In this document: in pieces, positions 1,508-35,728 of the stretch
How the letters are laid out: each line of letters starts with the position of its first letter
Numbering within the stretch: the stretch's first letter is position 1
NCBI GenBank assembly: GCA_943330235.2
Contig: CALQGY020000023.1
Coordinates: 1 to 37,806, forward strand
Source: Candidatus Kuenenia stuttgartensis
GTDB taxonomy: Bacteria; Gemmatimonadota; Gemmatimonadetes; Gemmatimonadales; Gemmatimonadaceae
DNA: 37,806 nt
Direction of reading: 5' to 3'
Translations under genes and position numbers: made by a program
The notes under the pieces: generated by a model
What the model was told of the DNA's origin: nothing
The model's input: the letters and a program-made list of their open reading frames with translations, nothing else
Databases searched by the model: none

Positions 1508-1667
1508 TCCTCGCGTATTCCGGTCCGCTCCCCTTGCGGCTACGGCAGTGGGTAAGAGATTCCATCCTAGTCGGCATCGATGGCAGATGCGGTTGAGCGC
1601 GCGTCTCGTGACGCGATGTCCCGATCGCTGCGCGCTGTCACAAGGCACTCACGGCGATCACGGACTC

Positions 1668-2657: not shown

Positions 2658-3859
2658 TGCCTCGCTCAGTGTGTCGTCCGCGCGCCATGTTCCCGCGCCG
2701 AATGGCGGCCGCGGCCGGTCTCGCGCTGCTCGTGCAGGCTCCGGCGCTGCATGGCCAAAGCACGCACACCGTGGTGGCGTCGCCCACGGTACAGTCCTGG
2801 CAATTCAACGATGCGGTGCCGCTCGACGCCATGACGGTGAAGAGCGCCACGCAGATCTCGCTGCCGTTCCTGATTGAGCGCGGGTTTGGTACGCGCTGGC
2901 GGGCGTCGGCCAGCGGGGCCGTTTTTTCCAGCAGCATCACGACGGACAGTGCCCTCAGCGGGACTACACGCTCGCTCTCCGGCCTGACCGACGTCCGCCT
3001 GCGCGCGACGGGTCGGCTCATTGGCGATGCGCTGCAGCTGACCGTCGGCGTGAACGTGCCCACGGGCGCGACGGGGCTCTCGGTCATCGAGAACACGGTG
3101 CTCCGCGTCATCGCCGCGCCGGCGCTGGGCGCGCAGGTCGCCGTCCCGGGCACGGGGTTGGGCGGCACGGTCGGATTACTGTCGGCACACACCGTCGGCC
3201 CGTGGGCGCTCGCGCTTGGGGCATCGGTGGAAAAGCGCGGGACCTATTCGCCGGTGGAAGCGACGATCGCCGGCCGCAGCGCGAGCACGGAGCTGGCGCC
3301 GGGTGGCACGGCGCACCTGTCGCTTGGCGCCGATCGGCTGCTGGGGGCCAACCGCCTCACCGTCGGCGTGGTTGGTGACCTCTACGGCACCGATGAGATC
3401 CACGCGATTGCCAACGGAGCCAGCAAGACCGACACGTATCAACTTGGACCGACGGGGCTCATTGCGATCACCCTGCAGATCGCGAGCACGCGCATTCGCG
3501 ACCTGACGCTGCAGTTTAGCGATCGCTATCGCAGCAGCTTCAAGGACGGGGCTGGGGTCGTCGTTGAGGGCTCGAGCGGCAATTACATCGAACTGGGCGG
3601 CATGGGCACCCTCGGCACACCAGGCCGGCCGTCGCTGGTGCTGGGGCTCGACGTGCGTCAGCAGTCGGGGCTGCCGGTGGACAAGAGCTTCATTGGCGCC
3701 GGGCTGACCGCTGCAGGCGCCACCGTGGGCGCGTCGTTTCCGCAGGGGGGCGTGGAGTGGCGCCCGTCGGTTCGGCTGTCCATGGGCACGCTCAAGACCG
3801 AGCAGCTGTCCACCGCCGTCCGCAGTATCACCGCGGGGCTGACCATCTCCGCACGCTAA
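2657..3859 (+). CDS. Probable outer-membrane beta-barrel protein of unknown function
   Basis: Protein of about 400 residues. A twin-Arg-containing basic N-terminus and the hydrophobic run MAAAAGLALLVQAPALHGQS form a good signal peptide. The rest is an almost continuous series of alternating polar/hydrophobic segments rich in Gly, Thr and Ser, separated by short turns, as expected for a beta-barrel (for example RWRASASGAVFSSS, LTVGVVGDLYG and PSVRLSMGTL). It ends in LTISAR rather than the usual terminal aromatic residue. ATG 2657 overlaps the stop of the CsgG-like gene; a GTG one codon earlier (2654) is the alternative start. Coupling to a CsgG/FlgO-like lipoprotein suggests a joint outer-membrane role. 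I do not recognise the family, and transport or adhesion cannot be told apart. Confidence 0.6.
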   Translation: MPRSVCRPRAMFPRRMAAAAGLALLVQAPALHGQSTHTVVASPTVQSWQFNDAVPLDAMTVKSATQISLPFLIERGFGTRWRASASGAVFSSSITTDSALSGTTRSLSGLTDVRLRATGRLIGDALQLTVGVNVPTGATGLSVIENTVLRVIAAPALGAQVAVPGTGLGGTVGLLSAHTVGPWALALGASVEKRGTYSPVEATIAGRSASTELAPGGTAHLSLGADRLLGANRLTVGVVGDLYGTDEIHAIANGASKTDTYQLGPTGLIAITLQIASTRIRDLTLQFSDRYRSSFKDGAGVVVEGSSGNYIELGGMGTLGTPGRPSLVLGLDVRQQSGLPVDKSFIGAGLTAAGATVGASFPQGGVEWRPSVRLSMGTLKTEQLSTAVRSITAGLTISAR

Positions 3860-4666: not shown

Positions 4667-4805
4667 CGTCTTCCGCTCCGAGGTTCAGGACCCGAATGTT
4701 CTTCAGGCGAGTAAGTTGCCGGTGTGCCGGTGACCGAGTCAACCGGCGATGCCCGACGAGCGGCCCGGCCAGTCGCAACCTTGTTCCTCACGCGTGATAC
4801 ACCAG
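4667..4805. promoter_or_regulatory. Divergent intergenic region between the CsgG-like gene and the kinase gene
   Basis: This 139-base spacer must hold the promoters of both divergent genes. I see no convincing -35/-10 pair on either strand. A short inverted repeat (gccggt...accggc, around 4729-4746) is present, but this base composition makes it unremarkable. Confidence 0.35.
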
Positions 4806-6560
4806 ATGCCCAAGATCTGCCTGATGTGCGGGGACAGTTTTCCCGACGCGACGACGTTCTGCCCGAAAGACGGTTCCGCGCTTCGGGCCGCGGTCCACGG
4901 CGATGACCTGATCGGCGAGTTGATTGCCGACCGGTACCTGATCACCGACCTGCTCAGTCAGGGCGGGATGGGCGCGGTGTACGTCGCGAGCGACGTGCGT
5001 CTGCCGCAGAAGTTCGCGGTGAAGGTGCTCAAGCAGAATCAGTCGCCGGACCCGACGCTCATCGCCCGCTTTCGTCAGGAAGCGGAGGCGGTGTGCCGCA
5101 TCAATCATGATCGCGTGGCGCGTGTGTTCGACTTCGGGTTCATGCCCGATGGCCGCGCGTACATCATCATGGAGTACGTGGCCGGTCGCACGCTCAAGCA
5201 GCTGATTGATGATCGTGGCGCATTGGAGCCCATCGAGGCCGCGCGCATCATCGGCATGACCGCCGAAGGGATGGACGCGGCGCATCGGTTGGGGATCGTG
5301 CATCGCGATCTCAAGCCCGAGAACGTCATGATTCTCGACGACGCGGGCGGCGGCACGCGCGTGAAGGTGTTGGACTTTGGCATCGCGAAGTTGCAGAACG
5401 CCGACGCGGATCAGGGACACACGCAGGCCGGCTACGTCATTGGCACACCGGCGTGGATGAGCCCCGAGCAGTTAATGGGGGAAACGATCGACCCGCGCAG
5501 CGACATCTACTCGCTGGGGCTCTTGGCCTTCGCGCTGCTGACCGGGCTGCGGCCGTTCACCGGCGATTCGGAGCAGGCGGAGATGCTGGCGCGCATCACC
5601 ACCGTGCCGCGCACGCTGGCCGAGGCGTTGCCAACCACGGCCTGGCCGGCCGATGTGCAGGCACTGTTCGACAGCACGCTGGCCCGCGAGAGCGCGCAGC
5701 GCCCCGCCACGGCCGTGTTGTTCGCGAAGACGCTGCTGGATCTGGTGACGGCGTGGAATGATCGCACGCGCGCGGGGTCCACGGCGCCGACGCGCGCGAT
5801 CGGTGCGGCCGCCAGTGCGGCCGCCAGTGCGCCGAGTCGCGCCAGCGCGTCGAACGCCTCGCCTGCCAACGCGTCGTCGAACGCCGCGGGTGCCTCGCGC
5901 CGAACACTCGCGATGAGTGTGGGTGGTGTGGTGGTGGTGGGGGCGATCGTGCTGGGCGTCATGCTCACGCGGAAAGACGCGGGATCGCCCGAGGCGTCTG
6001 TCGCGCCGCAGGCCTCTACGGGCGCGACGGACGTGGCCGCGCCAGCGCCGACGCCGAGCGACGGTGTACTCCGCGATACATCCGCGGTACCGGTGGCCCC
6101 CGCGACGACGCCGGCAGCGAGTCCCGCCCCATCGACCGCCACGGCTTCATCGACGAAGGGGCCGGCCGTGGTTGCTGACGCGCGCAAGCCGGTGGCCACC
6201 CCGAACACGCCCGCGGTGCGCGTCCCCGACGCCGCGGTGGAATCACCGAAGCCGACGGCGCCCGCCACCACGCAACGCAGCGCCGATCTGCAGCGCATCA
6301 TGGACCACTTCGATCGCGACGACAGTCAGGGCAACGCGAAGCTGACCATCATCGAGATCGATGCCATCCGCAGCAAGCTCGGTCCGGTGGATCAGGGGTG
6401 GGCGTGGATCTACACGGGCCTTTCGCAGTTCGCCATGAACGACAAGACGCAGGCCTGCGTGTCGTTTGAACGCGCGTCGAAGGTGCCGGGCGTATCCGAG
6501 GCGGTGCGGAAAGACAGTGAAGACAAACGCCTCATGATCGGCTGCCGCCCGTCCATCTAA
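4806..6560 (+). CDS. Membrane-anchored Hanks-type Ser/Thr protein kinase with N-terminal zinc ribbon
   Basis: Start chosen at ATG 4806 (MPKICLMCGDSF), because the zinc-ribbon Cys pattern begins there; an upstream in-frame ATG at 4749 would add 19 unlikely residues. Of the 584 residues, C5, C8 and C19 form a zinc ribbon of the CxxCG...FCPxDG type. The kinase domain (about 43-310) is complete: QGGMGAVY glycine loop (first Gly replaced by Ser51), K73 in FAVKVLK, HRDLKPEN with catalytic D168, DFG at D190 and GTPAWMSPEQ. An Ala/Ser/Pro linker, one TM helix (about 367-388) and a second low-complexity linker lead to a C-terminal helical domain of about 90 residues with two Cys. The kinase therefore faces the cytoplasm and the C-terminus faces the periplasm. 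It could act on T6SS components, as PpkA does in other T6SSs, but distance and strand do not prove this. Confidence 0.92.
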   Translation: MPKICLMCGDSFPDATTFCPKDGSALRAAVHGDDLIGELIADRYLITDLLSQGGMGAVYVASDVRLPQKFAVKVLKQNQSPDPTLIARFRQEAEAVCRINHDRVARVFDFGFMPDGRAYIIMEYVAGRTLKQLIDDRGALEPIEAARIIGMTAEGMDAAHRLGIVHRDLKPENVMILDDAGGGTRVKVLDFGIAKLQNADADQGHTQAGYVIGTPAWMSPEQLMGETIDPRSDIYSLGLLAFALLTGLRPFTGDSEQAEMLARITTVPRTLAEALPTTAWPADVQALFDSTLARESAQRPATAVLFAKTLLDLVTAWNDRTRAGSTAPTRAIGAAASAAASAPSRASASNASPANASSNAAGASRRTLAMSVGGVVVVGAIVLGVMLTRKDAGSPEASVAPQASTGATDVAAPAPTPSDGVLRDTSAVPVAPATTPAASPAPSTATASSTKGPAVVADARKPVATPNTPAVRVPDAAVESPKPTAPATTQRSADLQRIMDHFDRDDSQGNAKLTIIEIDAIRSKLGPVDQGWAWIYTGLSQFAMNDKTQACVSFERASKVPGVSEAVRKDSEDKRLMIGCRPSI

Positions 6561-8106: not shown

Positions 8107-11100
8107 TCAACCCGGCGGGCGCACGATTGGCCGAGGACGGGGCGGAGCGGTGGGCGCGACGCGCGGGCGACCGAATCCCGCGGCGCCGGTTGCTGCGCGC
8201 GACGCGCTGGTGACGAAGCCGCCCGGTGGGCCGATTTGTTGCGGTGTCGCACTGGGGCTCAGGCCGCCGTTGCCGAGTTGCCCGTAGCTGTTATCCCCCC
8301 AGCAGTAGATCGTACCGATCGAGGAACGTCCACAGATTGATTGCCAGCTCGCCGTCAGCGAGGTGAACGACACACCGCCGGAGACAGGCACCGGGGACGG
8401 TGACGGCTGTCCGATTGAGCCATTTCCAAGCTGACCGGCGTCGTTGCCCCCCCAGCAGAAGGCACTGCCGTTGGCCACCGTGCCACAACTGAAGTAGCCG
8501 CCCATCGTCAGTTTGACGAATGTCGCAGAGGTTGCGACGGGTACCGGGGTGAGCTCCCAGCTGGAGATGGTCCCGTTGCCGAGCTGCCCCTGATCGTTCG
8601 CGCCCCAGCAGTAGGTGGGGCCAGCACTCGTCCGACCACAGGTGTGGCTGTCGCCGGCGTCGATGTCGACAAACGTCAGCCCGCCACCCACCAGGACCGG
8701 CGCCGTTGACGGTGTCTGGGTGCCGTTACCCAGCTCGCCGCGCGAGTTGTTGCCCCAGCAGTACACAGCCCCCGCCGCGGTGCGGCCGCAGCTGTGGTAC
8801 CACCCGGTGGCGAGTTGGACAAACACCCGCCCCCCACCAACCGGCGTCGGCACGAGCAGATTGCCGGAGGAGACGCTTCCGCCTTCTCCGTAGTAGTTGG
8901 TTCCCCAGCAGTACGCGGCACCAGCGGTGGTCCGGCCGCACACGTGAAAACCGGCCGCACTGAGTTGCGCGAACGTCAGTCCTCCCGATACCGGCACCGG
9001 GATCGGATTCATCAGCTGTTCACTATCGAAGGTCCCGTTCCCGAGAACGCCCGTCATGTTCTGGCCCCAGCAATAGGCCACGCCCGTTGCCGTCAGACCA
9101 CAGGTGGCACCATCGCCCCCCTCAACTTGTGCCAGCACCGGGGCACTCGCGGCGCGGAGAGGGAGTGTGAGAGGCCCTTGCCGGGCGGATGCGGCCTGAC
9201 CGTAGATATTGTCGCCCCAGCAGTACATCGCGCCGCCGTTTTTGAGCGCGCAGCTGTGATAGGTGCCGGAGGACACCTCGGTGAACCCTGACACGTTGAG
9301 CGTGACCTTCACGCGCCCCACGCGCGCGCCATTCCGCGCGGTCACCGCAATGCGCGCGGTGTACGTGCCCGGCGCGAGGTTGATTTGCGGCACCGGCGTG
9401 AAGCGCAGTGAGGCGGGGAGCAGTTGCCCCGACAGTGACACCGCTTGCAGCCATCCCGCGGACGCAGGCTGGTCGTACGTCACGGAGTACCCGGGGGTGT
9501 CCAACCGCAGCGTATCCCCCGAGACGGTGCGCAGAGACACGCTCTGAGCGGCCCCCTGCTCACCCGGCAGCAGCGTGAAGGCCAGACTATCGGGCGTGGT
9601 CAGAATGGAGTCGCGCCGCACGGTGAGCTGCGCGTTCACGGTATCCGAGCTGGCACCACCGGTACTCGACGCCACGATAATCAGCGCCTGATAAATACCG
9701 TCGGCCAAGCCGGTGGGACGCGGCGTGACCGACATGGTGGTCGGCGTGGCCGTCGTGGACTGCAGCGTGGTCGAGAGCCAGCCGGTACCCGTGCCGAGAT
9801 ACACGATGCTGGACGAGAGGCCCGAGAGGACAATCGCGCCGTTGGACGACGTCACGTTGACCACCTGCGCCGGTCCGGCGATCACGGACGGATCAAGCGG
9901 GCCGAAGGTGAGCGACGCGGCCGACAACACGACCGACGCCGGCGGTGGCACGCGCATGGAGACACGCATGGTCACCGGCTGGCTGGGATCGGTGGCGCTG
10001 ACGGTCACGTCCGCGGTATACGTGCCCGCCGGCAGCGTGCCCGCCGACGCGCGCACCGTGAAGCTCGCGGGCGTCGAGGTGCCCACCAGCGTGGCGGTCA
10101 GCCACGGGGCCACGGCCTGCAGATAGTTCACGCTCAGCTGCAGCCCCGCCAGCGGGCGCGTGGGGCTGGTAATCGCAACGCTGGTGACGGCACTGACCGT
10201 GTTCTGCGGCACGCTGTCATACGCGACCAGCGTCCGGTTCAGGAGAATTTGCGGCGATGGGCGACGCGTCAGCGTGACGGTCAGCACGCCGTCGGGCACG
10301 CCGATCGTCGTGGAGCGCACCCGCACGATAGACTGCGTGGGGACGTTGACCGCCAGCTGTGCGCTGGCGGCGCGCGTGGATGGACGGACCGTCAGCACCG
10401 CGGGGGCCGTGGTGCGATCGAGCGTGGCCGTGACCAGCGAATCGCTGCCGATGAACACGGAGAGCGAGCCGAGGGAGCCAGCGCCGGCGTTCGTGATGGC
10501 GACCGTGCTGGCGGCCGGGAGCGGCTGGCCGAGTTCGGTCTCGAAGCTCAGCGCCGATGGGGCGACCTGCACGACCGGCGCGGCCTCCACGCGCAGCGCG
10601 GTGCTGGCGGTGATGGTCGCGCCGTTGCGCCCCTCCGTGGAGCGGGCGGTGATCACCACTTGGCCGATGCTGAGGGCGCCGGCGAGGCCGGCGGCGTTCA
10701 CGCTGGCCACGCTCGGGTTGGACGACGTGACGGCGATGGTCCGTCCCGTGAGCACGGCGCCGGTGGCCGAGCGGGCGGTCACGCGGTAGGGGAGATTGGC
10801 GCCAACGGAGATGGTGGTATCGGCAGGTGCCAGATCGATGCTGGCAACACTCGCGGTACCCACCGTCAGCGACAGATCCTGCGTCCGTCCGCCGACGGCG
10901 GCGCGGACCACGGCCGGTCCCGACGCGAGCGCCCGCAGGACCCCGGTCGTGCCCACGGACACGCCACCACTCACCACCGACCAGGTCGGCGCGCGGCCGG
11001 CCACGGTACCACCCGCGCGATCCAGCGGCGTCGCCGACAGCACGACGGAATCGCCCGGCTCGGCGTTCGCGATGGTGGCGGGCGCGATCCGTACGGTGGC

Positions 11101-11583
11101 GACTTCAAACAGTTGGACCGGCGAGGCATCGAGCTTGTCGGTCCCGGCCGCGACGGTGAGTCGCTGGCTCGACTCGTCGAGCACCACCCCCGCGCGCTTG
11201 AGCCGCACGGTCAGATCCAGCGCGCAGGGCGCGGATCCAGCTGCGGCAGCGTCGCGGACGCACGCGGTGACATCCGCCGCCAGCGACAACGCGGCATCAG
11301 TGCCGCCCGTGTTCACCACCAGCGAGTCGCGCGCGACCGTCTGCGCCGTACCGCCGGTCGACGGGGTGTAGGTCACGAGGCCTTCCACGACCGCGCCGGG
11401 ATTGGCGACGATGCCCGCCGAGAGGGCCAACCGCACCGAGCCGGGCACGCGGCCGGCGCCAGTGGGATTGTCCGCGCCGCTGCAGGCCACCGACATCAGC
11501 ATGGCCAGTCCCCCGACGCCGCGCAGGACGACAGGACGCGGTCGGGACGCGCGCGTGATCAGGAGGCGAGTAAGCAGGAACAA
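8107..11583 (-). CDS. Large lipoprotein with Ig-like domains and a seven-repeat RCC1 propeller
   Basis: 1158 residues, probably starting at TTG 11583, which has GGAG seven bases upstream (ATG 11502 is an alternative but would remove the basic N-region). The hydrophobic segment ends MSVAC, so C34 is the likely lipidation site. Residues about 163-242 and 246-333 resemble Big-2-type bacterial Ig domains (SSNPSVASVNAAGL). About 337-760 are further Ig/BACON-like beta repeats of roughly 90-100 residues (APSALSFETELGQ, TPDSLAFTLLPGEQ). Residues 767-1120 hold seven RCC1-like repeats of about 50 residues, each with the form H/x-S-C-G-R-x-x-x-G-x-x-Y-C-W-G-x-N-x-x-G-Q-L-G-N-G. Seven repeats fit one closed propeller. 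Each blade has two Cys, suiting disulfides in an exported protein. A Pro/Arg tail follows. Its role is unknown; surface binding or adhesion is an inference. Confidence 0.85.
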   Translation of the reverse strand: MFLLTRLLITRASRPRPVVLRGVGGLAMLMSVACSGADNPTGAGRVPGSVRLALSAGIVANPGAVVEGLVTYTPSTGGTAQTVARDSLVVNTGGTDAALSLAADVTACVRDAAAAGSAPCALDLTVRLKRAGVVLDESSQRLTVAAGTDKLDASPVQLFEVATVRIAPATIANAEPGDSVVLSATPLDRAGGTVAGRAPTWSVVSGGVSVGTTGVLRALASGPAVVRAAVGGRTQDLSLTVGTASVASIDLAPADTTISVGANLPYRVTARSATGAVLTGRTIAVTSSNPSVASVNAAGLAGALSIGQVVITARSTEGRNGATITASTALRVEAAPVVQVAPSALSFETELGQPLPAASTVAITNAGAGSLGSLSVFIGSDSLVTATLDRTTAPAVLTVRPSTRAASAQLAVNVPTQSIVRVRSTTIGVPDGVLTVTLTRRPSPQILLNRTLVAYDSVPQNTVSAVTSVAITSPTRPLAGLQLSVNYLQAVAPWLTATLVGTSTPASFTVRASAGTLPAGTYTADVTVSATDPSQPVTMRVSMRVPPPASVVLSAASLTFGPLDPSVIAGPAQVVNVTSSNGAIVLSGLSSSIVYLGTGTGWLSTTLQSTTATPTTMSVTPRPTGLADGIYQALIIVASSTGGASSDTVNAQLTVRRDSILTTPDSLAFTLLPGEQGAAQSVSLRTVSGDTLRLDTPGYSVTYDQPASAGWLQAVSLSGQLLPASLRFTPVPQINLAPGTYTARIAVTARNGARVGRVKVTLNVSGFTEVSSGTYHSCALKNGGAMYCWGDNIYGQAASARQGPLTLPLRAASAPVLAQVEGGDGATCGLTATGVAYCWGQNMTGVLGNGTFDSEQLMNPIPVPVSGGLTFAQLSAAGFHVCGRTTAGAAYCWGTNYYGEGGSVSSGNLLVPTPVGGGRVFVQLATGWYHSCGRTAAGAVYCWGNNSRGELGNGTQTPSTAPVLVGGGLTFVDIDAGDSHTCGRTSAGPTYCWGANDQGQLGNGTISSWELTPVPVATSATFVKLTMGGYFSCGTVANGSAFCWGGNDAGQLGNGSIGQPSPSPVPVSGGVSFTSLTASWQSICGRSSIGTIYCWGDNSYGQLGNGGLSPSATPQQIGPPGGFVTSASRAATGAAGFGRPRVAPTAPPRPRPIVRPPG
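8224..9285 (-). repeat. Seven tandem RCC1-type repeats inside the lipoprotein gene
   Basis: Seven protein-level repeats of 49-52 residues carry a CxxxxxGxxYCWG core followed by a GQLGNG-like turn. The turn is degenerate in repeats 1 and 3. The core is visible at DNA level as a recurring 'ccccagcagta' word on the plus strand. Confidence 0.85.
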
Positions 11584-12042: not shown

Positions 12043-12732
12043 TTACTTGGCGGTGGGAGACTTCGTGACGCGCTCGTACTCCACGACCGCACGCTGATGC
12101 CGCTCGTACGCACTCGCGAGCGCGGCATCCCAACCGCCCAGCCGCTTAATAATTTCGAGCCCCTGCGCGGCAAACGCCGCCAGCGTGGGCCCCACCAACT
12201 CGGCATCCGCGTTGGCGGCGGCGGCCAGCGTCACCACGCCCGCCACCAGCGGCGGCACCACACCGGGCGGTGGCGGTACAGCGGGCAGGCTCGATGGCCC
12301 AACCGTCGCGCCGCTCAGGAAGACCGCCGCGGACACCATGCCGATGGGGGTGTCCAGTCCCGCCGCATTACCGGCATCCCAGGCCGCCCGTCGCGCGTCG
12401 TCGTCTGGACGCACAATCCACTGCTCCACCGCCGCGATAGCCTTGTGCGCGGCTGCGGTCGGTGCCGCGCCGCCCACCATCTGCGTGGCGTGCCGCGCCG
12501 ACACCCAGGCCCACCAGACGCTTTCGCGCGATGGCATCACGCCGGCGAGCAAGCGAATGGCCGAGGGCACCTGCTCCTGCTGCATCCACGTATCGAACAA
12601 CTGCTCCAGCGCCAAATCGGGGCGCACGAACGCCATCGCCGGCTCATCCGGCGCCACGCGGGTCAGCAGCCAGCGCGCCGGCTCGGCTAGCGCCGCCAAC
12701 GGATCGGGCGCCATGGCAAGAGGTGCAGTCAT
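12043..12732 (-). CDS. Unrecognised protein between vgrG and PAAR, candidate effector adaptor
   Basis: 229 residues, Ala- and Pro-rich. It begins with a helical region (DPLAALAEPARWLLTRVAPDEPAMAFVRP...) that has a Trp cluster (WWAWVSARHA, about 83-92). A Pro-rich hydrophobic middle (LPAVPPPPGVVPPLVAGVVTLAAA) follows, then a C-terminal helix ending ERVTKSPTAK. There is no signal peptide and no catalytic motif I know. It may belong to a DUF6931-like group often seen near VgrG, but that is from memory and uncertain. The 10-base gap to vgrG and 6-base gap to PAAR show co-transcription. In other T6SSs this position is often held by an adaptor that loads effectors onto the spike, or by an effector; either is possible here. 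Confidence 0.7.
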   Translation of the reverse strand: MTAPLAMAPDPLAALAEPARWLLTRVAPDEPAMAFVRPDLALEQLFDTWMQQEQVPSAIRLLAGVMPSRESVWWAWVSARHATQMVGGAAPTAAAHKAIAAVEQWIVRPDDDARRAAWDAGNAAGLDTPIGMVSAAVFLSGATVGPSSLPAVPPPPGVVPPLVAGVVTLAAAANADAELVGPTLAAFAAQGLEIIKRLGGWDAALASAYERHQRAVVEYERVTKSPTAK

Positions 12733-26591: not shown

Positions 26592-26645
26592 CGCCGTCCG
26601 CGCGCACCTCTGACGTTCCTCGCATCGCGGGGATACGTTACGCCC

Positions 26646-27992
26646 ATGCGCCACTTGCAGCCGGTTCTCTGGACCAAGGGCGTCCTGCTCTCGCCGCAGC
26701 ATCTGCAGGCACAGGACCGCCATCACGAGGAAACGCTCGCCTTCCAGGTGGGCGCGCTGGCGTTTTGCCCCTGGGGCTTTGCCCGCCTCGCGTTCGATCA
26801 CGAGGCGCTCGCCGGTGGCGCCCTCGTCGTCAGCGCCGCCGCGGGACGGTTCCCCGACGGCCTGCTGTTCGATGCGCCCGCCGGTGGTGCCACGCCGTCG
26901 CCGAAAGCCCTGGCCGACGCCTTCGCACCGGATCAGCGCACGCTGCAGGTGTATCTCGCCGTGCCCGAGTATCGGCCCGGTGCGCGCAACGTCGCCCGCC
27001 TCGGTGACCACGCCGCGACGCGCTGGCACGCCGATGAGCAGCTGGTGCGCGACGAAACGACCGGACTGTCGGAACGCCCCATCCAAGTCGCGCCGCCCAG
27101 TCTGCGCGTGCTGCTGGAAGGCGAAAGTCTGGAAGGGTTCGTCACCCTCCCCATCGCCCGCCTGACGCGCGCCAGCAGCGGCGAAGTGGCCTTCGATCAC
27201 ACGTTCATTCCGCCACTGCTCGATCTCGCCGCCAGCGAGACGCTGCTCAGCCTGGCTCGACGTCTCGTCGATCGACTCTCCGCCAAGAGCAGCGCGCTCG
27301 CCGGCAGCCGCCGCCAACGCAATCAGGGGCTCGCCGACTTCTCCGTGGCGGACGTCGGCAGCTTCTGGCTGTTGTACACACTCAACACGCACTTCCCCGC
27401 CCTCCGGCACCTGCACGACGTGCGCCGCGGTCATCCGTCCCTGCTGTGGGAGACGATGCTGGCGCTGGTGGGGGCGTTGTCCACGTTCGCCCCCAACGCC
27501 GATGCCCGCACGCTCCCCGCGTACGATCATCTGCGGCTCGGCGAAGGCTTCGCCGAACTCGAGCGACGCCTCTACGAACTGCTCGACGGTGCCGCGGTCG
27601 ACACCGCCGTGTCGCTGCCGCTCAAGGCGGTGCGCCCGACGCTGCATGCGGTCGCCATCGATCAGACCAAGTGGCTGGAAGCGCCGCAGTGGTTCCTCGC
27701 GGTCAGCTCCCCGCTCCGGCAGCAGGAGCTCATCCCCAAGGTGCTGCACGGCTGCAAGGTGGGCTCGGCCGACGTGGTGGACACGCTCATCCGTCAGGCG
27801 CTCCCCGGCATCGAGCTCGCCCACATGTCCTCACCGCCAGCCGCGGTCCCGGTCAAGCTGGACTTCCAGTACTTCGCGATCCGTCAGGCTGGCGCGGCGT
27901 GGGACGCTATCAGCCGCGCGCGGAACCTGGCCGTGTATGTACCGGCCGAATTGGTGGATGCCCGCTTCGAACTCGTCATCGTCCTGAAGTAG
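26646..27992 (+). CDS. tssK: T6SS baseplate-membrane connector TssK, first paralogue
   Basis: Start chosen at ATG 26646 (MRHLQPVLWTKGVLLSPQHLQAQ), since homology to TssK begins there; 448 residues. It has the N-terminal shoulder motif W-x-x-G-x-L-L-x-P-Q-H-x-Q-A-Q-D-R, then PDGLLFDAP, YLAVPEYRPGARNV and FIPPLLDLAAS. The middle has SFWLLYTLNTHFPALRHL...HPSLLWETMLALVGALSTF. The C-terminal head has QWFLAVSSPLRQQELIPKVLHGCKVGSADVVDTLIRQALPGIEL and ends VYVPAELVDARFELVIVLK. TssK trimers join the baseplate to the TssL/TssM membrane complex. A second, clearly divergent TssK is encoded at 29953-31356. No strong ribosome-binding site is visible. Confidence 0.94.
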   Translation: MRHLQPVLWTKGVLLSPQHLQAQDRHHEETLAFQVGALAFCPWGFARLAFDHEALAGGALVVSAAAGRFPDGLLFDAPAGGATPSPKALADAFAPDQRTLQVYLAVPEYRPGARNVARLGDHAATRWHADEQLVRDETTGLSERPIQVAPPSLRVLLEGESLEGFVTLPIARLTRASSGEVAFDHTFIPPLLDLAASETLLSLARRLVDRLSAKSSALAGSRRQRNQGLADFSVADVGSFWLLYTLNTHFPALRHLHDVRRGHPSLLWETMLALVGALSTFAPNADARTLPAYDHLRLGEGFAELERRLYELLDGAAVDTAVSLPLKAVRPTLHAVAIDQTKWLEAPQWFLAVSSPLRQQELIPKVLHGCKVGSADVVDTLIRQALPGIELAHMSSPPAAVPVKLDFQYFAIRQAGAAWDAISRARNLAVYVPAELVDARFELVIVLK

Positions 27993-28042: not shown

Positions 28043-29758
28043 CTACTTGGCGACTGGCGCGGTGACCGCAGGAGCGGTGACGGTGGGTGCGGTGACCGCT
28101 GGTGCGGTGACCGCTGGTGCGGTGACCGCTGGTGCGGTGACCGTGGGAGCAGCCGGTAGCGTCGGCACGGTCGGCTGCGGGCGCCGCAGCAGGAAGAAGA
28201 CCATCACCAGCGCGAGCACGATGACGACGTTGATGATGATGATCAGCCCCATCGGAATGCTTTTCTTCGCGGCGGGGGCCGGTGCAGCGGCCGGCGCCGG
28301 CGCCGGTGCCGCGGGGACGACCGGCGGTGCGGCCTTGCTAATCATCATCGTGAATTCACTGGGCGCAGGCGCCGCAGCGCGGCCCGACATCGCGGCGCCG
28401 CCCATCGCCGACAGCGGAGCGGCGTCCGCGTTCTTGAACAGCGGCGGCGGCACCACCGACGGCATCGCCGACGGGGTCCCCATCGGGGATGCCATCGGGG
28501 ATGCCATCGGGGATGCCATGGGGGATCCCACTGGTGACCCGACCGAGGGTGGCATCCCGACGGACGGCATTCCGACGGGCGGCTGTGCAAGCGGGAGCGG
28601 CGCCACCGGCGGCACGTAGGCAGGCGGCGTGGCCGCGAACGGCGGCACGGCGAAGGGCGACGGCGATGTGGCCGCCCCACCGAACAACGAACTCGACGCG
28701 GGCGCCGGCGGCGACATCGGCGGCGACATCGGCGACGGCTGGGAGGTCGCGGGCAACGGCGTGGCGGCCGGCGACGAGAACATCATCGTGAACTCGCCGG
28801 GGCCGGTCTTGGCGGGCGGCGCGGGGGGCGGTACGGGGGCCGGCGCTGGTGTCGGTACCGGAGTCGGCGCGAACGGCGCAAACGGTACGGGGGTCGGCGT
28901 GGGCGGCGCCGCGGCAAACGGCGGCGGCACCATCGGCGTAAAGAGCCCCGATGTCGCGGTGGATGGTGCCGGCGTCGGCGTGGGCGCCACGGGAGTCATC
29001 GGCCCAGGGGCCGATGCCGCAGGGGCCGATGCCGCGCTGAACATCATCGTGAACTCACCGGGCACGTGCGGCGCCGCCGGGGGCACCACTGGCGGCACCA
29101 CTAGTGGCACAACCGGCGCCGCCACAACCGGCGCCGCCACAACCGGCGCCGCCACAACCGGCGCCGGCGCGAGCGCGCCGAACATCTGCGTAAACGACCC
29201 GGCCGGCGGCGCCGCAGACGAGGGCACGGGCGGCGCAATCGGCGTCGGTGCGGGAAGCACCGGCACGATCGGCTCCGCGGCCAGCGCGCCAAACATCTGC
29301 GTGAACGACCCGCCCGACGCGGCGGCGGGTGCGGCGTCGGGTGCGGCGGCGGGTGCGGGCATCGGCGGGAACGGCGGCGGAACAACCGGCGCCACCGGCG
29401 GCGCCACGGGCGCCACCACCGGCGCCACCACGGGTGCCGGCGGCGTCGCGATCTCCATCGTCGCTGGTCGCCGTAAGCCGACCCATTCCACGAACGAGCC
29501 CATCGCGGGCACAAACTCGGTCACGATGGCAAACCCCGACGTCAACGTCGCGGTCTCCAGCACGCGATTCTTGTCCGCGCCGGACAACCGTCCCAGCAGC
29601 GTCCGGAGCTGCTCCACTTCGTCCGGTCCCGCGTTATCGGCGATATGCACCAGCACCACGCGCCCGGAGTCCAGCTCCTGCGCGCTGTGGGTGCGGATAC
29701 CATCGTCGACCGCTATGCACTTCAGCAGGCGGTACCGGGCGCTGAAATCGTCGCTCAT
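28043..29758 (-). CDS. Proline-rich single-TM protein with degenerate kinase-like N-lobe and F-T-x-M-F repeats
   Basis: 571 residues from ATG 29758 (a TTG five codons up is possible). Residues 9-95 follow the order of a kinase N-lobe (ARYRLLK, SGRVVLVHI, FAIVTEFVPAMGSFVEWV), but the glycine loop and the VAIK lysine are missing and no C-lobe follows, so it cannot be an active kinase. Residues about 100-495 are a Pro/Ala/Val linker. The motif F-T-[QM]-M-[FI] recurs at 152-156, 189-193, 236-240, 323-327 and 469-473, usually preceded by G-S, G-E or S-E, with a weaker FTPMV at 273-277. A TM helix (about 502-525) and a TAPAV repeat tail follow. It lies inside the T6SS cluster, between the two tssK genes and on the opposite strand. 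A cytoplasmic tether or scaffold for the T6SS is an inference. Confidence 0.8.
   Translation of the reverse strand: MSDDFSARYRLLKCIAVDDGIRTHSAQELDSGRVVLVHIADNAGPDEVEQLRTLLGRLSGADKNRVLETATLTSGFAIVTEFVPAMGSFVEWVGLRRPATMEIATPPAPVVAPVVAPVAPPVAPVVPPPFPPMPAPAAAPDAAPAAASGGSFTQMFGALAAEPIVPVLPAPTPIAPPVPSSAAPPAGSFTQMFGALAPAPVVAAPVVAAPVVAAPVVPLVVPPVVPPAAPHVPGEFTMMFSAASAPAASAPGPMTPVAPTPTPAPSTATSGLFTPMVPPPFAAAPPTPTPVPFAPFAPTPVPTPAPAPVPPPAPPAKTGPGEFTMMFSSPAATPLPATSQPSPMSPPMSPPAPASSSLFGGAATSPSPFAVPPFAATPPAYVPPVAPLPLAQPPVGMPSVGMPPSVGSPVGSPMASPMASPMASPMGTPSAMPSVVPPPLFKNADAAPLSAMGGAAMSGRAAAPAPSEFTMMISKAAPPVVPAAPAPAPAAAPAPAAKKSIPMGLIIIINVVIVLALVMVFFLLRRPQPTVPTLPAAPTVTAPAVTAPAVTAPAVTAPTVTAPAVTAPVAK
28059..28150. 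repeat. 15-bp tandem repeat coding the TAPAV tail
   Basis: About six copies of a 15-base unit (gcggtgaccgctggt and close variants) encode the C-terminal TAPAV/TAPTV tail of the proline-rich protein. The inner three copies are identical, suggesting recent slippage. Confidence 0.8.
28481..28530. repeat. 12-bp tandem repeat coding M-A-S-P units
   Basis: Four near-identical units of ggggatgccatc encode PMAS repeats (residues about 412-426) of the proline-rich protein. Confidence 0.75.
29107..29165. repeat. 15-bp tandem repeat coding V-V-A-A-P units
   Basis: Units of ggcgccgccacaacc in tandem (three identical copies plus partial ones) encode VVAAP repeats at residues about 200-215 of the proline-rich protein, between the second and third F-T-x-M-F motifs. 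Confidence 0.75.
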
Positions 29759-29952: not shown

Positions 29953-31356
29953 ATGCGATTGATGTCCGCCCCGGCCCGACGCGTCATCTGGGAAGACGGC
30001 ATGCACCTCACGCCGCAGCACTTCCAGGCGCAGCGCCGGTATCAGGAAGATCAGGCGACACACACCGTCGATCTGCTGTTTCCCTTTGCGTACGGCGTGT
30101 CGGCCATCGCCCTGGATGCCGACGCGCTGAGCAACGGCACGCTCGCGCTCGTCCAGGCGCGCGGCGTGCTCCCCGACGGCACCGTGTTTCATACGCCCGA
30201 CACCGACCGCGCGCCGGCCCCCGCCGCGCTCGCGTCGCGATTCTCCCCCACGCGCGACACGCATCTGGTGTTCCTCGCGCTCCCGCGCTGGCGCGGCGAT
30301 GCCGCAAATGTGCGTGAGGCAGATTCGAGCGTGGCGTCGTTGAGCACAGATACCCGCGCGGATACCCGCTACCGCAGCGTCGAGGAGATCGTCACTGACG
30401 AATCCACCGGCAGCGACCCGCTGGCCATCCGATTTGCCGCGCGCAATCTGCAGTTCCTGCTCGACGAAGAGCTGACGGACGAAGTGATCGCTATGCCGAT
30501 CGCCCGGGTGCGGCGTGATGGACGCGGCCAGTTTCAGTTTGACGCGGAGTACGTGCCGCCCACCCTGCAGATCGGGGCCAGCGACCAGTTGATGGCCCTG
30601 CTCCGTCGCACCGTGGCGTTGCTCGAAACCAAAGGCAGCGCGCTGGCCGCGACCATCAACATGGCACCCTCCGGTGCCGCCGGCGGCGCCGCCGCCTACG
30701 TCGGCAACGAACTCGCCACTCGGTGGCTGTTGCACGCCGTCCGCTCGGCGGATGCGCCGCTGCGCCATCTGCTGCTCACGCGGCGTGCCCACCCGGAACG
30801 TCTCTACATCGAACTGTCGCGACTCACCGGCGCGCTCTGCACCTTCGCCATGGGCGCGCATCCGCGCGACGTGCCCGCCTACGATCACGACGACCTCACG
30901 ACCTGCTTTGAGGGACTCGAACGGCAGCTCCGCATGCACCTCGATGTGGTGATTTCCGCGCGCGCGATCATCGTGCCGCTGCAGCGCGCCTCCGAAGTCC
31001 TTCATGTGGCCGCGATTGCCGACCCACGCTGCTTCGAGCCCGGCGCCAAGTGGTTTCTCGCGGTCCGCGCGGATGTGAGCCAGGCCGACCTCATTGATCG
31101 CGTGCAGCGCCTGACCAAGACGTGCGCCAGCAAGTTCGTGCTGGAGCTGGTGCGTCGCGCCTTCAATGGCTTGCCCACCGAACACATCCCCACGCCGCCG
31201 GCCGGCCTCGCGCCCAAGCCGGAGCTCACGTACTTCGAACTCACGATGAGCGGTCCGTGCGCCGTCTCGCTCGCCGATGCGCGCGAAGTGGGCGTGTATG
31301 TGCCCGATGCCTTGCCGGGTGCGTACCTGGAAGTCGCGATTCTGGTGCCGCAATAA
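29953..31356 (+). CDS. tssK: T6SS baseplate-membrane connector TssK, second paralogue
   Basis: 467 residues (ATG 29953, or ATG 29962 three codons later). It shares the TssK frame with the gene at 26646: RRVIWEDGMHLTPQHFQAQRRYQED, LPDGTVFHTPD, HLVFLALPRWRGDAANV, RFAARNLQFLLDEELTDEVIAMPIARV, FDAEYVPPTLQIGASDQLM. It then has WLLHAVRSADAPLRHLLLTRRAHPERLYIELSRLTGALCTF and KWFLAVRADVSQADLIDRVQRLTKTCASKFVLELVRRAFNGLPTEHIPTPP. It ends VGVYVPDALPGAYLEVAILVPQ. Sequence identity to TssK1 is limited outside these motifs, so this is not a recent duplication. It is followed 31 bases later by tssL, so it probably contacts the membrane complex and may be the canonical copy. Confidence 0.94.
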   Translation: MRLMSAPARRVIWEDGMHLTPQHFQAQRRYQEDQATHTVDLLFPFAYGVSAIALDADALSNGTLALVQARGVLPDGTVFHTPDTDRAPAPAALASRFSPTRDTHLVFLALPRWRGDAANVREADSSVASLSTDTRADTRYRSVEEIVTDESTGSDPLAIRFAARNLQFLLDEELTDEVIAMPIARVRRDGRGQFQFDAEYVPPTLQIGASDQLMALLRRTVALLETKGSALAATINMAPSGAAGGAAAYVGNELATRWLLHAVRSADAPLRHLLLTRRAHPERLYIELSRLTGALCTFAMGAHPRDVPAYDHDDLTTCFEGLERQLRMHLDVVISARAIIVPLQRASEVLHVAAIADPRCFEPGAKWFLAVRADVSQADLIDRVQRLTKTCASKFVLELVRRAFNGLPTEHIPTPPAGLAPKPELTYFELTMSGPCAVSLADAREVGVYVPDALPGAYLEVAILVPQ

Positions 31357-31387
31357 TTCACGCACGAATTCACACCCAGGAGTTGTT

Positions 31388-32086
31388 GTGAGCGCTTCCC
31401 CGCATGTCGCATCCGGTCGTCTCGCCACGGCACTGCAAGAAGTGTTGACGGCGGTCGTACGCCTGCGCGCTGACCGGCAACCGGTCACCGACGCCGCCTC
31501 CTTCCGGGCGCAGATGACGCAGCTCCTCGCGCGCGCCGAACAGGACGCGATGGGCGCCGGCTTCTCCGCGCAGGACGCGCGACTCGCCATCTTCGCCGCC
31601 GTGGCGTATCTGGACGAGTCGGTGCTCAACTCGCGCACCGCGGCCCTGGCCGACTGGGCGCGACGCCCGCTGCAGGATGAACTGTTCGGCGGCCACATGG
31701 GCGGCGAGTGGTTCTTCCAACACATCGAGCAGCTGCTCGCACGCCCGGACAGCGCCGAACTCGCCGACCTGCTCGAAGTCCATCAGCTCTGCTTGCTGAT
31801 GGGCTTCCGCGGCAAGTACGGCGCCGGCGATCACGGCGAGTTGCACGCCATCACGTCGCGCGTTGCGGAACGCCTCGCGCGCCTGCGCGGCCCGGCGGGC
31901 GATCTCGCCCCCATGTGGCGCCCGCCCGCTGACCGCGTCGATGCGACCGATCCGTGGCTGCGCCGCCTGACCATCGCCTCCGCCAGCGCGTTCGTGCTGC
32001 TGTTGGCACTCTGGGGCGGATACTTCCTCATGCTCCGCGGTGGCAGCAGCGAGATCCGTACGCTCGCCGCCACCGTCACGCGCTAA
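31388..32086 (+). CDS. tssL: T6SS inner-membrane protein TssL (IcmH/DotU family)
   Basis: The frame is open from 31277, overlapping tssK2, but I set the start at GTG 31388 (V/MSASPHVASGRL). The sequence caggag lies 6 bases upstream, and the extra upstream residues do not resemble TssL. At 232 residues it has the DotU hallmarks: AQDARLAIFAAVAYLDESVLNS, DWARRPLQDELFGGHMGGEWFFQHIEQLL, and LEVHQLCLLMGFRGKYG. One TM helix (about 200-222) near the C-terminus anchors it, leaving only about 15 periplasmic residues and no peptidoglycan-binding OmpA domain. TssL with TssM and TssK forms the trans-envelope complex base. Confidence 0.95.
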   Translation: MSASPHVASGRLATALQEVLTAVVRLRADRQPVTDAASFRAQMTQLLARAEQDAMGAGFSAQDARLAIFAAVAYLDESVLNSRTAALADWARRPLQDELFGGHMGGEWFFQHIEQLLARPDSAELADLLEVHQLCLLMGFRGKYGAGDHGELHAITSRVAERLARLRGPAGDLAPMWRPPADRVDATDPWLRRLTIASASAFVLLLALWGGYFLMLRGGSSEIRTLAATVTR

Positions 32087-32197: not shown

Positions 32198-35100
32198 ATG
32201 GCGACTCGTAAGCCTTTCGTCCGCTGGCTCATTGCCGCTGCGGTGCTGTTGCTCTTCCTCGTCGCGATGCTCGTGCTCGATCGGACGCTGGTCCTTGACG
32301 ACGTCACGCGCTGGGGCATGCGCATTGGGTTTGTCCTGCTCGGACTCATCGCCGCGGGCGCGATCGTCTGGTATCTGCGTCCACAGGACGAAGAGCCCGC
32401 GATTGATCCGGGCGACGACGTGCTGATGGTCATCGGTGGTGCGCGCGCGAAGTTGCCGCGGCGCAGCTTCGCCAACCGGCCGGTGGTGTTGGTGATCGGC
32501 CCGGAGGGCGGGACGAAAACCACGCTCGTCGCGCGATCGGGGAGCGATCCGGAGCTGCTGGCCGGTGATGCCGTCATGAAGCAGGGCGAGGCACCGGCCT
32601 CCACCACGACGGCGAATGTGTGGGCCATTCGACAGTCCATCCTCGTGGAGCTCGCGGGCTCGCTGCTGAGCGACGGTCCGCGCTGGACGAAAGTCGTGCG
32701 CGCGCTGCGTGCGCCGCGCATGGCCGCCGCAGTGGGACAAGGCGAGGCCGCGTCGCGCGCCGCCGTGGTGTGCGTGCCGTGTGATCTGTTCTACGCGGGC
32801 GGCAACGGGCAGCAGCTCGCCGCCCTCGGCGTGGCGCTGCGTCAGCGACTGGCCGAAGCCTCGCGCGAGCTCGGACTCGCCATGCCCGTGTACGTGGTGT
32901 TCACCAAGATGGACCGCGTGCCGCACTTCGAGCCGTGGATTGGCGCGTTAACCAAAGACGAACTGCGCGCACCGTTGGGCGCCACGCTGCCGCTCGATCC
33001 GGCCGCGAACACGGCCAACTTCGCGGAGCGACTGACGCCGCGCATCGATGCCGCCTTCCGGCAGATCGTGCAGGTCATCAGCGCACGTCGCGCCGAGCTG
33101 CTGGGGCGCGAAGCCACGCTGGATCGCCGCTACGGCGCCTACGAATTGCCGCGCGAACTCGGGAAGCTTGCGCCGTCCATCGCCGCCTTCCTGGTGGAAC
33201 TGTGCCGTCCGACGCAGTTGGGCTCGAGCCCGCAGCTACGCGGCTTCTACTTTGTCGGCGCGCGTCCCGTGGTGGTGAGTGATGTCGCACAGGCCGCCGC
33301 CGTGCGCGCGGCCCCGGAAGCGTCGTCGGCCAACGCGACCATGATGTTCCGACAGGCCATGCAGCCGGCCGCGGCGTCGGCACCGCTCGCCGCCGCACCC
33401 ACGTCACGCAAGGTGCCCGAGTGGGTGTTCCTCAACACGTTCCTGCGCGACGTCGTGCTGGCGGATACGGGCGCACAGTCTATCGCCAGCGGTGGTGTGC
33501 GCGTGCAGCGCACGCGGCGCGTCATGCTGGGCGCGACCATCGCGGCCAGCGTGCTGCTGCTGCTCGGCGTCACCGCATCGTGGCTCGGCAATCGCGCGCT
33601 CACCGCGCGGGTCGCCGATGCGGCGCGTGATGTCGCGGCACTGCCCGTCGTGAAATCCGCCCCCGGTACGATCGCGTTTCCATCAGCGGATGCGTTGCGC
33701 CGTCTGGATGTGCTGCGTGCGCAGCTCGACACCGTGCGCCGCTACGTAAACGACGGCCCGCCGCTGCGCCTGCGCTTCGGACTGTGGCAAGGGCCCGCGC
33801 TCATCGACGCCGCGCGCCCGGTGTGGTACGAAGGCTTCCGCCGCCAACTGTTTGCCGACGGCTGGGGCGCCATGGTGGATTCGCTCAAGGCGCTGCCGGA
33901 AATTCCCACCACCGCCAACGACTACGGCACGACGTACGGCTGGCTCAAGGGCTATCTGATCACCACCTCCTCGCCCGACAGCAGCACGGCACAATTCCTG
34001 GCGCCGGTGTTGCTCAGCAGCTGGCAGCGCGGGCAGGCAACCGACGCGGACATCACCGCGCTCGCGCGGCGCCAGTTCGAGTTCTACGCCAGCGAATTGC
34101 CGGCGTTCAATCCGTTCCCGGTCGCGGCCAACGCCGCCATCGTCACACAGGCGCGCGATTTCCTCGGCCGCTTCACGGGCGGCGAGCAGATCTACCGCAA
34201 CATGATCAGCGACGCCGACAAGGCCGTCCCCGCCACGCCCATTCCGCAGACACCGGGGCTGCTGACCACCACACCGGAAGTCGAGGGCGCGTTCTCCACC
34301 AAGGGCGCGGCGTTCATGGCCGAGGCGTTCCGCAATTCCGATCGCTACTTCCAGGGCGAGACGTGGGTGGTGGGTGATGCCACGGCGTCGCGCGCGGTCG
34401 ATCGCGACGCCGTCATCGCGACGCTGCGAGGTCGGTACCATGACGACTACGTGAAGGCATGGAGCGGCGTGGTGCAGAGCGTCGCCATCGCGCGTCCCTC
34501 CACGGTGAAGGACGCGGCGCAGAAGCTGGAAGTGCTCTCCAGCGCCCAGTCGCCCATCCTGCAGGTGCTGCGCATCACGGCGGTGAATACCGCCGTCGAT
34601 TCGGCCATGCGTGCGACGTTCCAGCCCGTGCATGCCGTCACCCCCCCCGAGGTGGTGGACAAGTTCGTGTCGGACAAGAATCAGCCGTACATGGACGGCC
34701 TGCTGGGGCTGCAGGCTGCCCTCGGCCAAGTGGGGAACATGCCGGCCCCGGTGGACACGGCGTCGGCGGTGGCCATGGCGCAGGCGGCACAGCTGGCCGC
34801 CGGCGATGTCACGAAGGCCCGTCTCGCCGAGAAGAAGGTGGCGCAGACATTCACGCTGACCCCGGACGCGGCCCCGCTCGCGAGCGCGGTGGACAATCTG
34901 CTGGTGGCGCCCATCACGGGCGCGGAAGCGGTCCTGCGCACGGCGGCGTCCATGAAGCCGCCCACCAAGCGCGTGGTCGCGGCCGCACCGGCCCCGGCGG
35001 CGCCCGCCGCCGGTGGTGGTGGCGGTGTGAACGTCGCCGTCATTCTGAACGAGCGCGGTCGCGCGCTGTGCGGCCAGATGAACCCCATTCTGGCCAAGTT

Positions 35101-35728
35101 CCCCTTCAGCCCTGATGCGGCGTCCGAAGCCAGCATTGCCGAAGTCACCGCGTTGCTGGCCCCGGGCACGGGCGCCCTCTGGGCGTTCCAGCAGGAGCGA
35201 CTCGCGCCGTATCTGGACAAGCAGGGCGGCAAGTGGGCGGCCAAGCCGGTGGGGAACGTGGCGCTGTCGGCGTCGTTCGTGGAGTTCTTCAACCGCGCCG
35301 CGCAGATCTCCTCGGCGCTCTTCCCCGACAACGCCCCCACGCCCACGCTGCGGTGGATGGCCAGCGGCATCACGTCGGCGCAGACGCCCATCATCACGCT
35401 CAAGCACGGCGGCCGTGAGGCGCGCTTCGACGCCAAAACGCCGCGCAACGAGATTGTCTGGCCGGCCGAGTCAGGACGCGAGGCGAAGCTCGAGGCGCAG
35501 TTCAAGAAGAACAAGCCGGTGGTCGTCGCGTCGGGCACGGGCGAGTGGGCCCTATTCCGCCTGGTGGCGCAGGCCGCCCGCTTTGATGGAGCCGGCCACG
35601 CCGAGTGGAACGCCACCGGCAAGGACGCGCAGCCGGTCGTGGTGGAGTTTGATGCGCCGGGTGGGATGCCGGTGCTCAAGCGCGGGTGGCTGGGTGGGAT
35701 GACGTGTGTGGCGCAGGTGACGCAGTAG
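32198..35728 (+). CDS. tssM: T6SS inner-membrane protein TssM (IcmF family)
   Basis: 1176 residues. Two N-terminal TM helices (about 8-28 and 41-60) and a third (about 443-463) frame a cytoplasmic NTPase-like domain. The usual GxxxxGK[ST] loop reads GPEGGTKT (101-108), with Thr in place of the last Gly. The Walker B/G3-like stretch reads SILVELAGSL with Glu where family members usually have DTAG. FTKMD (about 235-239) is the conserved G4-like TKxD. After TM3 the long periplasmic part ends with a TssM C-terminal domain (KNKPVVVASGTGEWALFRLVAQAARFD...). TssM spans the periplasm toward the outer membrane. A T-M-M-F string (381-384) in an Ala-rich cytoplasmic loop resembles the motif in the proline-rich protein. 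It is the last gene of the plus-strand T6SS unit. Confidence 0.95.
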   Translation: MATRKPFVRWLIAAAVLLLFLVAMLVLDRTLVLDDVTRWGMRIGFVLLGLIAAGAIVWYLRPQDEEPAIDPGDDVLMVIGGARAKLPRRSFANRPVVLVIGPEGGTKTTLVARSGSDPELLAGDAVMKQGEAPASTTTANVWAIRQSILVELAGSLLSDGPRWTKVVRALRAPRMAAAVGQGEAASRAAVVCVPCDLFYAGGNGQQLAALGVALRQRLAEASRELGLAMPVYVVFTKMDRVPHFEPWIGALTKDELRAPLGATLPLDPAANTANFAERLTPRIDAAFRQIVQVISARRAELLGREATLDRRYGAYELPRELGKLAPSIAAFLVELCRPTQLGSSPQLRGFYFVGARPVVVSDVAQAAAVRAAPEASSANATMMFRQAMQPAAASAPLAAAPTSRKVPEWVFLNTFLRDVVLADTGAQSIASGGVRVQRTRRVMLGATIAASVLLLLGVTASWLGNRALTARVADAARDVAALPVVKSAPGTIAFPSADALRRLDVLRAQLDTVRRYVNDGPPLRLRFGLWQGPALIDAARPVWYEGFRRQLFADGWGAMVDSLKALPEIPTTANDYGTTYGWLKGYLITTSSPDSSTAQFLAPVLLSSWQRGQATDADITALARRQFEFYASELPAFNPFPVAANAAIVTQARDFLGRFTGGEQIYRNMISDADKAVPATPIPQTPGLLTTTPEVEGAFSTKGAAFMAEAFRNSDRYFQGETWVVGDATASRAVDRDAVIATLRGRYHDDYVKAWSGVVQSVAIARPSTVKDAAQKLEVLSSAQSPILQVLRITAVNTAVDSAMRATFQPVHAVTPPEVVDKFVSDKNQPYMDGLLGLQAALGQVGNMPAPVDTASAVAMAQAAQLAAGDVTKARLAEKKVAQTFTLTPDAAPLASAVDNLLVAPITGAEAVLRTAASMKPPTKRVVAAAPAPAAPAAGGGGGVNVAVILNERGRALCGQMNPILAKFPFSPDAASEASIAEVTALLAPGTGALWAFQQERLAPYLDKQGGKWAAKPVGNVALSASFVEFFNRAAQISSALFPDNAPTPTLRWMASGITSAQTPIITLKHGGREARFDAKTPRNEIVWPAESGREAKLEAQFKKNKPVVVASGTGEWALFRLVAQAARFDGAGHAEWNATGKDAQPVVVEFDAPGGMPVLKRGWLGGMTCVAQVTQ

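Follow-up and report, generated by a model that had tools for sequence, protein, structure and literature searches.

What is the role of a protein that belongs to no catalogued family and is encoded in the middle of a T6SS cluster, on the strand opposite to the two tssK genes between which it lies? The window, by which we mean the whole stretch of DNA analysed (37,806 nucleotides), is an entire 37.8-kb contig from a Gemmatimonadota genome of 4.0 Mb. Pfam matches to VgrG, ClpV, TssG, TssF, TssE, TssA, ImpE, Hcp and TssC, and in the same cluster to two TssK proteins, TssL, TssM and one Ser/Thr kinase, identify it as a T6SS cluster; the protein encoded adjoining tssC we take by its position to be TssB. 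The product of the gene between tssK1 and tssK2, here called X, consists of a kinase-like N-lobe, a linker with repeated motifs and a C-terminal tail anchor (Table 1), and its start, MS[DE]DF, is common to the same-genus homologues. X has no family in scans of Pfam, NCBIfam, PHROGs or PADLOC, and the literature searched contains no report of the motif or of a comparable Gemmatimonadota T6SS component.

Two other genes of the window are placed near vgrG: one for a 1158-aa RCC1-propeller protein with a Big_2 domain (8107-11583), two genes away, and one for a DUF6931 protein (12043-12732), which adjoins vgrG and occupies the same place in same-genus genomes and in G322.

Table 1. Positions of gene X, its parts and the neighbouring or accompanying genes; positions without a locus label refer to the window.
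Feature	Position	Strand	Residues or size	Basis or remark
Gene X	28043-29758	minus	571 aa	ATG start; open frame, homologues, motif shuffle test
Kinase N-lobe	29468-29758	minus	1-97	AF2, Foldseek/PDB, alignment; VAIK Lys replaced by His38
Motif 1, FTQMF	29291-29305	minus	152-156
Motif 2, FTQMF	29180-29194	minus	189-193
Motif 3, FTMMF	29039-29053	minus	236-240
Weak motif, FTPMV	28928-28942	minus	273-277	not retained in relatives
Motif 4, FTMMF	28778-28792	minus	323-327
Membrane-proximal motif, FTMMI	28340-28354	minus	469-473	GPS[DE]FTR[MIV][IV] type in relatives
Transmembrane helix	28187-28252	minus	503-524	C-tail anchor; AF2 and hydropathy of 35 relatives
Tandem array	29108-29166		15 bp x 3.9
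Tandem array	28480-28530		12 bp x 4.2
Tandem array	28054-28143	minus	15 bp x 6	C-terminal tail, lineage-specific
tssK1	26643-27992	plus		convergent neighbour of X; PF05936, TIGR03353
tssK2	29953-31356	plus		divergent neighbour of X; PF05936, TIGR03353
tssL (DotU family)	31277-32086	plus		real start probably further in
tssM	32198-35728	plus
Ser/Thr kinase of cluster	4749-6560	plus		PF00069; proposed to phosphorylate motif threonines
FHA-protease	L149:2443-4413
FHA-protease	L154:10282-11718
FHA-protease	L157:3217-4692
FHA-protease	L162:9318-10700
FHA-protease	L165:12121-13536
CsgG-like/outer-membrane-like	1548-3859
CsgG-like/outer-membrane-like	L150:579-2875 and 5696-6517
CsgG-like/outer-membrane-like	L153:4297-9779

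Co-occurrence of X with T6SS genes

Both distribution and gene order tie X to the T6SS. Of 61 genomes, 10 have strong TssK matches, and these same 10, with no others, carry an X homologue. Among 395 Gemmatimonadota genomes, 44 gave an N-lobe match, and 43 of these belong to the 46 with a full-scoring TssK (G373, from which just one copy was recovered, is counted here). The three TssK genomes without an N-lobe match comprise one with a diverged homologue (G352), one with a version lacking the N-lobe (G387) and one whose contig ends just past tssK, where X would be expected (G351); with the diverged and N-lobe-less versions, both of which occupy the usual place, included, X is encoded in 45 of the 46. 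X is missing from all 12 genomes whose TssK match is merely divergent, low-scoring or partial. The cleanest comparison is provided by the window's own genus, in which the T6SS is patchy (8 of 30 genomes) and the presence of X matches it perfectly. The position of the gene is also fixed: X is divergent to tssK2, with 132-350 bp between the domain starts, in 43 of the 44 assessable loci, namely those with the upstream tssK on the contig, and the sole exception is G387, where X and both tssK genes share one strand. A DNA pattern for G[ED]FTR[LMI]F gave 76 matches in 47 genomes against 2 for a reversed control, and the coordinates place multi-copy clusters at T6SS loci only, with stray single matches in other genomes. 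X therefore meets the criteria of a dedicated T6SS component, which are co-occurrence with T6SS genes only and a fixed position in the cluster. It is a T6SS-linked cluster member, an uncatalogued and nearly obligatory protein of the T6SS wherever this occurs in Gemmatimonadota; its effect on T6SS activity is inferred.

A preliminary description of this locus, made without database searches, had placed X between two tssK genes on the opposite strand, had inferred the T6SS link from that position, and knew of no described T6SS component of this form. The placement holds, the link is now shown by distribution in 395 genomes as well as by locus position, and no such component was found in the literature searched. 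Homologues in T6SS-free genomes, which if widespread would have refuted the link, were not found. These counts are not independent events, because the genomes within the phylum are related, and many of the assemblies surveyed are fragmented. A contig scan matched Gemmatimonadota only; as it relied on N-lobe peptides of four sequences, little can be concluded from it on other phyla. No plasmid-borne relatives of X were found.

Two matches were rejected as X: the 44th N-lobe match, in G245, is a true Ser/Thr kinase, and the match in G014 is short, out-of-family and contains a stop. In ten genomes (G075, G152, G173, G275, G279, G306, G308, G309, G328 and G359) the sole TssK-like match is a divergent one (~135-155 bits) and X is missing; it is likely that they possess a different contractile system. 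The orthologue in G029 has its frame broken by an exact Nextera transposase-adapter sequence, CTGTCTCTTATACACATCT (L050:3676-3694), which is an assembly artefact in a single-contig genome.

Architecture of protein X

The N-terminal domain of X has the fold of a kinase N-lobe. AF2 modelling of residues 1-100 with five relatives gives the order b1-b2-b3-aC-b4-b5-aD (pLDDT 84, pTM 0.76), and all 50 of the best matches listed by Foldseek against the PDB are protein kinases (best E 8e-4, TM-score up to 0.67), the pseudokinase Rv3910 among them. The N-lobe topology (b1-b3, aC, b4-b5) is thus met on both AF2 and Foldseek, while the criteria for an active kinase (PF00069: VAIK lysine, HRD, DFG and C-lobe) are failed. 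The VAIK lysine is a histidine in 31 of 31 aligned relatives, among which Ala26 and Trp92 are invariant, and the protein has no catalytic loop, no DFG and no C-lobe; as the domain ends after aD, X cannot be an active kinase. The evidence from sequence comparison is weaker than that from the fold: hhalign against 19 same-genome kinases places the entire lobe in register (P ~1e-4) with a probability of just 57%, and the N-lobe profile retrieves no kinase from the PDB sequences, its best matches being designed repeat proteins and chance. The identity of the N-lobe is therefore settled by fold comparison and not by sequence profile.

The N-lobe is also the best conserved region of X within the genus, at 80% identity. 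This conservation, the well-supported fold and the presence of a kinase in the cluster favour a reading of X as a pseudokinase regulator, with the N-lobe as the active part and an allosteric partner of the kinase, and the linker as a spacer or substrate sink. We consider this unlikely, as the motif copies are conserved far above chance and the G387 version, encoded at the same locus, has lost the N-lobe while its motif array and anchor remain. That protein (L108:2731-3693, 321 aa) carries three motifs, the sequence DSYLDRLY and a transmembrane helix, and its gene lies between the tssK genes, directly beside tssK1. It suggests that the motif array and the anchor form the core of X, and since G387 has a cluster kinase, the link to the kinase does not depend on the N-lobe.

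Five linker matches to F[TS]x[LMI][FIL] compare with 0.019 expected from the shuffled linker, and none of 20,000 shuffles reached five; across 35 X proteins there are 107 motifs against 0.4 expected from shuffles. Deriving the consensus with each position left free in turn gives PG[EDA]F-T-[RQ]-[LMI]-[FI], of which the Q/M form seen in the window (FTQMF/FTMMF) is a local variant. No motif residue varies less than the central threonine: when this position is left free, 106 of 108 copies have T and the other 2 have S, against 97/110 for F(-1) and 91/119 for F(+3); position -2 is mostly acidic (E/D in 89/114) and +3 is hydrophobic. The last, membrane-proximal motif is of a separate type (Table 1), and the element DDYLDRL precedes the transmembrane helix in many class-level relatives. 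Full-length AF2 modelling finds order only in the N-lobe and the helix at 503-524, with the linker disordered and no helix at the motifs in isolation. Among same-genus orthologues the motif columns are 76% identical, against 46% in the other linker columns, and gaps occur in 150 of 368 non-motif columns. Arrays are retained in close and distant relatives, also in families with unrelated linkers, and the linker is a clear case of fast-evolving disorder in which only short motifs are conserved. The other T6SS proteins of the window have no motif array, with single unrelated matches in ClpV and Hcp only, and no second array was found in the window's own genome.

That the linker is merely a drifting Pro/Ala repeat, with the motifs as by-products of slippage, is a further rival reading, and tandem arrays do occur in the linker. 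This low-complexity explanation is all but excluded. None of the three tandem arrays in X overlaps a motif, the motifs exceed shuffled expectation by two orders of magnitude, and they persist in other families with unrelated linkers; the shuffle and conservation data contradict it.

A single clear hydrophobic helix near the C-terminus is found in 34 of 35 X proteins, the exception being L091, which is probably frameshifted. In 16 of the 34, no more than 10 residues follow the helix, which marks the Pro/Ala repeat tail seen in the window protein as a lineage-specific addition. X has no N-terminal signal and no earlier helix, from which we infer that its N-terminus is in the cytoplasm. Basic residues flank the helix of the window protein on both sides, so that charge alone does not fix its topology, and this leaves some room for a reversed arrangement in which linker and N-lobe are non-cytoplasmic and X acts in the periplasm. 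Such an arrangement is very unlikely, given the lack of a signal or earlier helix, the short tails of nearly half the relatives, which end like tail-anchored proteins, and the cytoplasmic nature of a kinase-type lobe and of kinase- and FHA-type partners.

Most of the preliminary description of the protein is borne out by these data. The short kinase-like N-lobe without catalytic residues, the one transmembrane helix, and the Pro/Ala linker with five clear and one weak F-T-x-M-F motif are all confirmed, with a consensus broader than the Q/M form. So is the claim of slippage at three tandem repeats with the motifs intact, although one of these arrays lies in the C-terminal tail; the repeat tail holds in part, being present in the window protein and lineage-specific. 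Neither of two possible refutations, absence of the motif from close relatives or an N-terminal fold unrelated to kinases, was observed. The suggested scaffold presenting multiple docking sites is supported, whereas a decoy is not, and a reading of X as an effector likewise has no support. To this the present analysis adds the invariant threonine, the cluster kinase, the FHA partner in part of the phylum, the tail-anchor layout and the N-lobe-less version in G387.

A putative phosphothreonine scaffold and its rivals

The invariant threonine draws attention to the kinases encoded near X. In 15 of 17 loci with the flank read, a Ser/Thr kinase gene lies within ~3 kb of tssM, next to it or nearly so; no kinase adjoins tssM in the other two, G331 and G223. 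The window kinase has the layout of the G020 kinase and is located at the far end of the cluster. For the C-terminal region of the G020 kinase, close relatives (68% or above) occur in each of the six remaining genomes of the genus that have a T6SS, the window's genome set aside, always on the tssK2 contig and ~4-6 kb from tssK2. One T6SS-negative genome, G022, carries a relative of the cluster kinase. In the class-level families f5 and f6 a conserved FHA-TM-coiled-coil-trypsin protein is encoded beside the T6SS kinase gene at nine loci (G103, G196, G322, G352, G387, G294, G218, G089 and G368); it is an FHA protein of the inner membrane whose protease part is probably periplasmic. No FHA gene was found in the T6SS clusters read from the window's family.

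Known systems offer partial precedents. In Agrobacterium, PpkA phosphorylates TssL at Thr14 and Fha binds the phosphorylated residue (PMC3953482). The X locus shares with this pathway a Ser/Thr kinase in the T6SS cluster and a threonine on a disordered segment of an inner-membrane protein, a segment that in X is inferred to be cytoplasmic; part of the phylum also encodes an FHA protein nearby. It differs in that the sites are numerous and repeated and have a dedicated protein of their own, where the known pathway has one on TssL or Fha. X is, in addition, headed by a kinase N-lobe, and its phosphorylation is inferred only; the Gemmatimonadota FHA protein, moreover, is a protease of the membrane, and the clusters read from the window's family lack it. 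By analogy, X resembles the logic of the PpkA/Fha pathway, and membership in it is not shown. In M. tuberculosis, the pseudokinase tail of MviN (Rv3910) is phosphorylated by PknB and recruits FhaA, and the N-lobe of MviN mediates back-to-back dimerisation (PMC12599244). MviN is, like X, a membrane protein with a dead kinase fold, and its phosphorylated tail recruits an FHA protein, but its pseudokinase domain is complete, with both lobes, and belongs to a multi-TM protein that acts in peptidoglycan synthesis, with no motif array and no T6SS. EssB/YukC of type VIIb secretion (PMC12599244) also has a single TM helix, carries a pseudokinase fold in its N-terminal, cytoplasmic part and works for a secretion machine. 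That machine is a different one, the folded pseudokinase forms the structural core of EssB/YukC itself, and there is no long disordered motif linker; X fails the EssB/YukC criterion of a complete pseudokinase next to one transmembrane helix, having an N-lobe only and its helix ~400 residues away.

Given the context of the invariant threonine, the cluster kinase, the FHA association in part of the phylum and the PpkA and MviN precedents, we propose that X is a tail-anchored phosphothreonine scaffold. We regard this as the best explanation of the protein, with confidence that is evenly balanced; phospho-docking is inferred, and there are no phosphorylation or binding data. According to this model, X would be a dedicated accessory part of the two-TssK T6SS of Gemmatimonadota, anchored by its C-terminal tail in the inner membrane with the N-lobe and long disordered linker in the cytoplasm, where the linker would display three to seven copies of the consensus motif. 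The cluster Ser/Thr kinase would phosphorylate the invariant threonines, probably helped by the dead N-lobe docking the kinase as an adaptor. The phosphorylated array may then recruit phosphothreonine readers or T6SS parts at the TssL-TssM base and in this way tune assembly or firing; in f5 and f6 the reader would likely be the FHA-TM-protease encoded beside the kinase, and none is identified in the window's family. PknA-dependent sites of M. tuberculosis have acidic residues upstream and Leu/Val at +3 (PMC7164672). The model is further favoured by the second X gene of G331, which is paired with a kinase gene in divergent orientation. Cluster membership, the fold, the helix, the motif array with its conservation and invariant threonine, and the kinase and FHA neighbourhood are shown, while topology, phosphorylation, the reader and any effect on the machine are inferred. 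Several observations weigh against the phospho-scaffold: the clusters of the window's family lack the proposed FHA reader, two of the 17 loci have no tssM-side kinase and a kinase relative exists in the T6SS-negative G022, G387 has a cluster kinase without an N-lobe on its X, and the F-xx-L-F spacing of the motif also fits a helical docking motif that needs no phosphate.

This last observation leads to the main rival, a constitutive tether, in which the FTxLF motifs form short amphipathic helices that fit directly into a groove on TssK1, on TssK2 or on some other part of the baseplate, and so tether baseplates to the membrane complex with no need of phosphorylation. In its favour, X is always encoded beside tssK2 and usually between both tssK genes, positions 0, +3 and +4 of the motif are hydrophobic, G387 retains motifs and anchor without the N-lobe, and TssK binds short hydrophobic repeats of TssG (PMC8406304). 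The TssG foot loops resemble the array as short repeated hydrophobic docking elements of a TssK-containing baseplate, but their LG repeats are not FTxLF and are carried on a folded wedge protein without an anchor. Against the tether, the hydrophobic positions vary more than the threonine does, which a purely hydrophobic groove does not explain, the cluster kinase and FHA genes are left unaccounted for, and AF2 gives no helix at isolated motifs. We hold it to be a serious possibility, but one clearly less likely than the phosphothreonine scaffold.

Returning to the phosphothreonine scaffold, a bolder version would have the repeated motifs on their tail-anchored disordered tether, with the kinase-lobe adaptor, act as a phospho-tunable multivalent platform that clusters two-TssK baseplates under the membrane complex. 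This we offer tentatively, as more apt to be wrong than right; if true, it would add a principle of control that no description of a contractile injection system yet contains. X ties together the two-TssK baseplate, the cluster kinase and, in part of the phylum, the FHA-protease, and phosphorylation control of T6SS assembly outside Proteobacteria thus becomes directly testable.

Two further observations concern the surroundings of the kinases. CsgG-like proteins and an outer-membrane-like protein accompany the T6SS kinase in several genomes (Table 1). A second, shorter copy of X in G331 (L093:3515-4594) lies ~24 kb from the first; 548 bp separate it from a kinase gene in head-to-head orientation, which adjoins vgrG and a DUF2169 gene.
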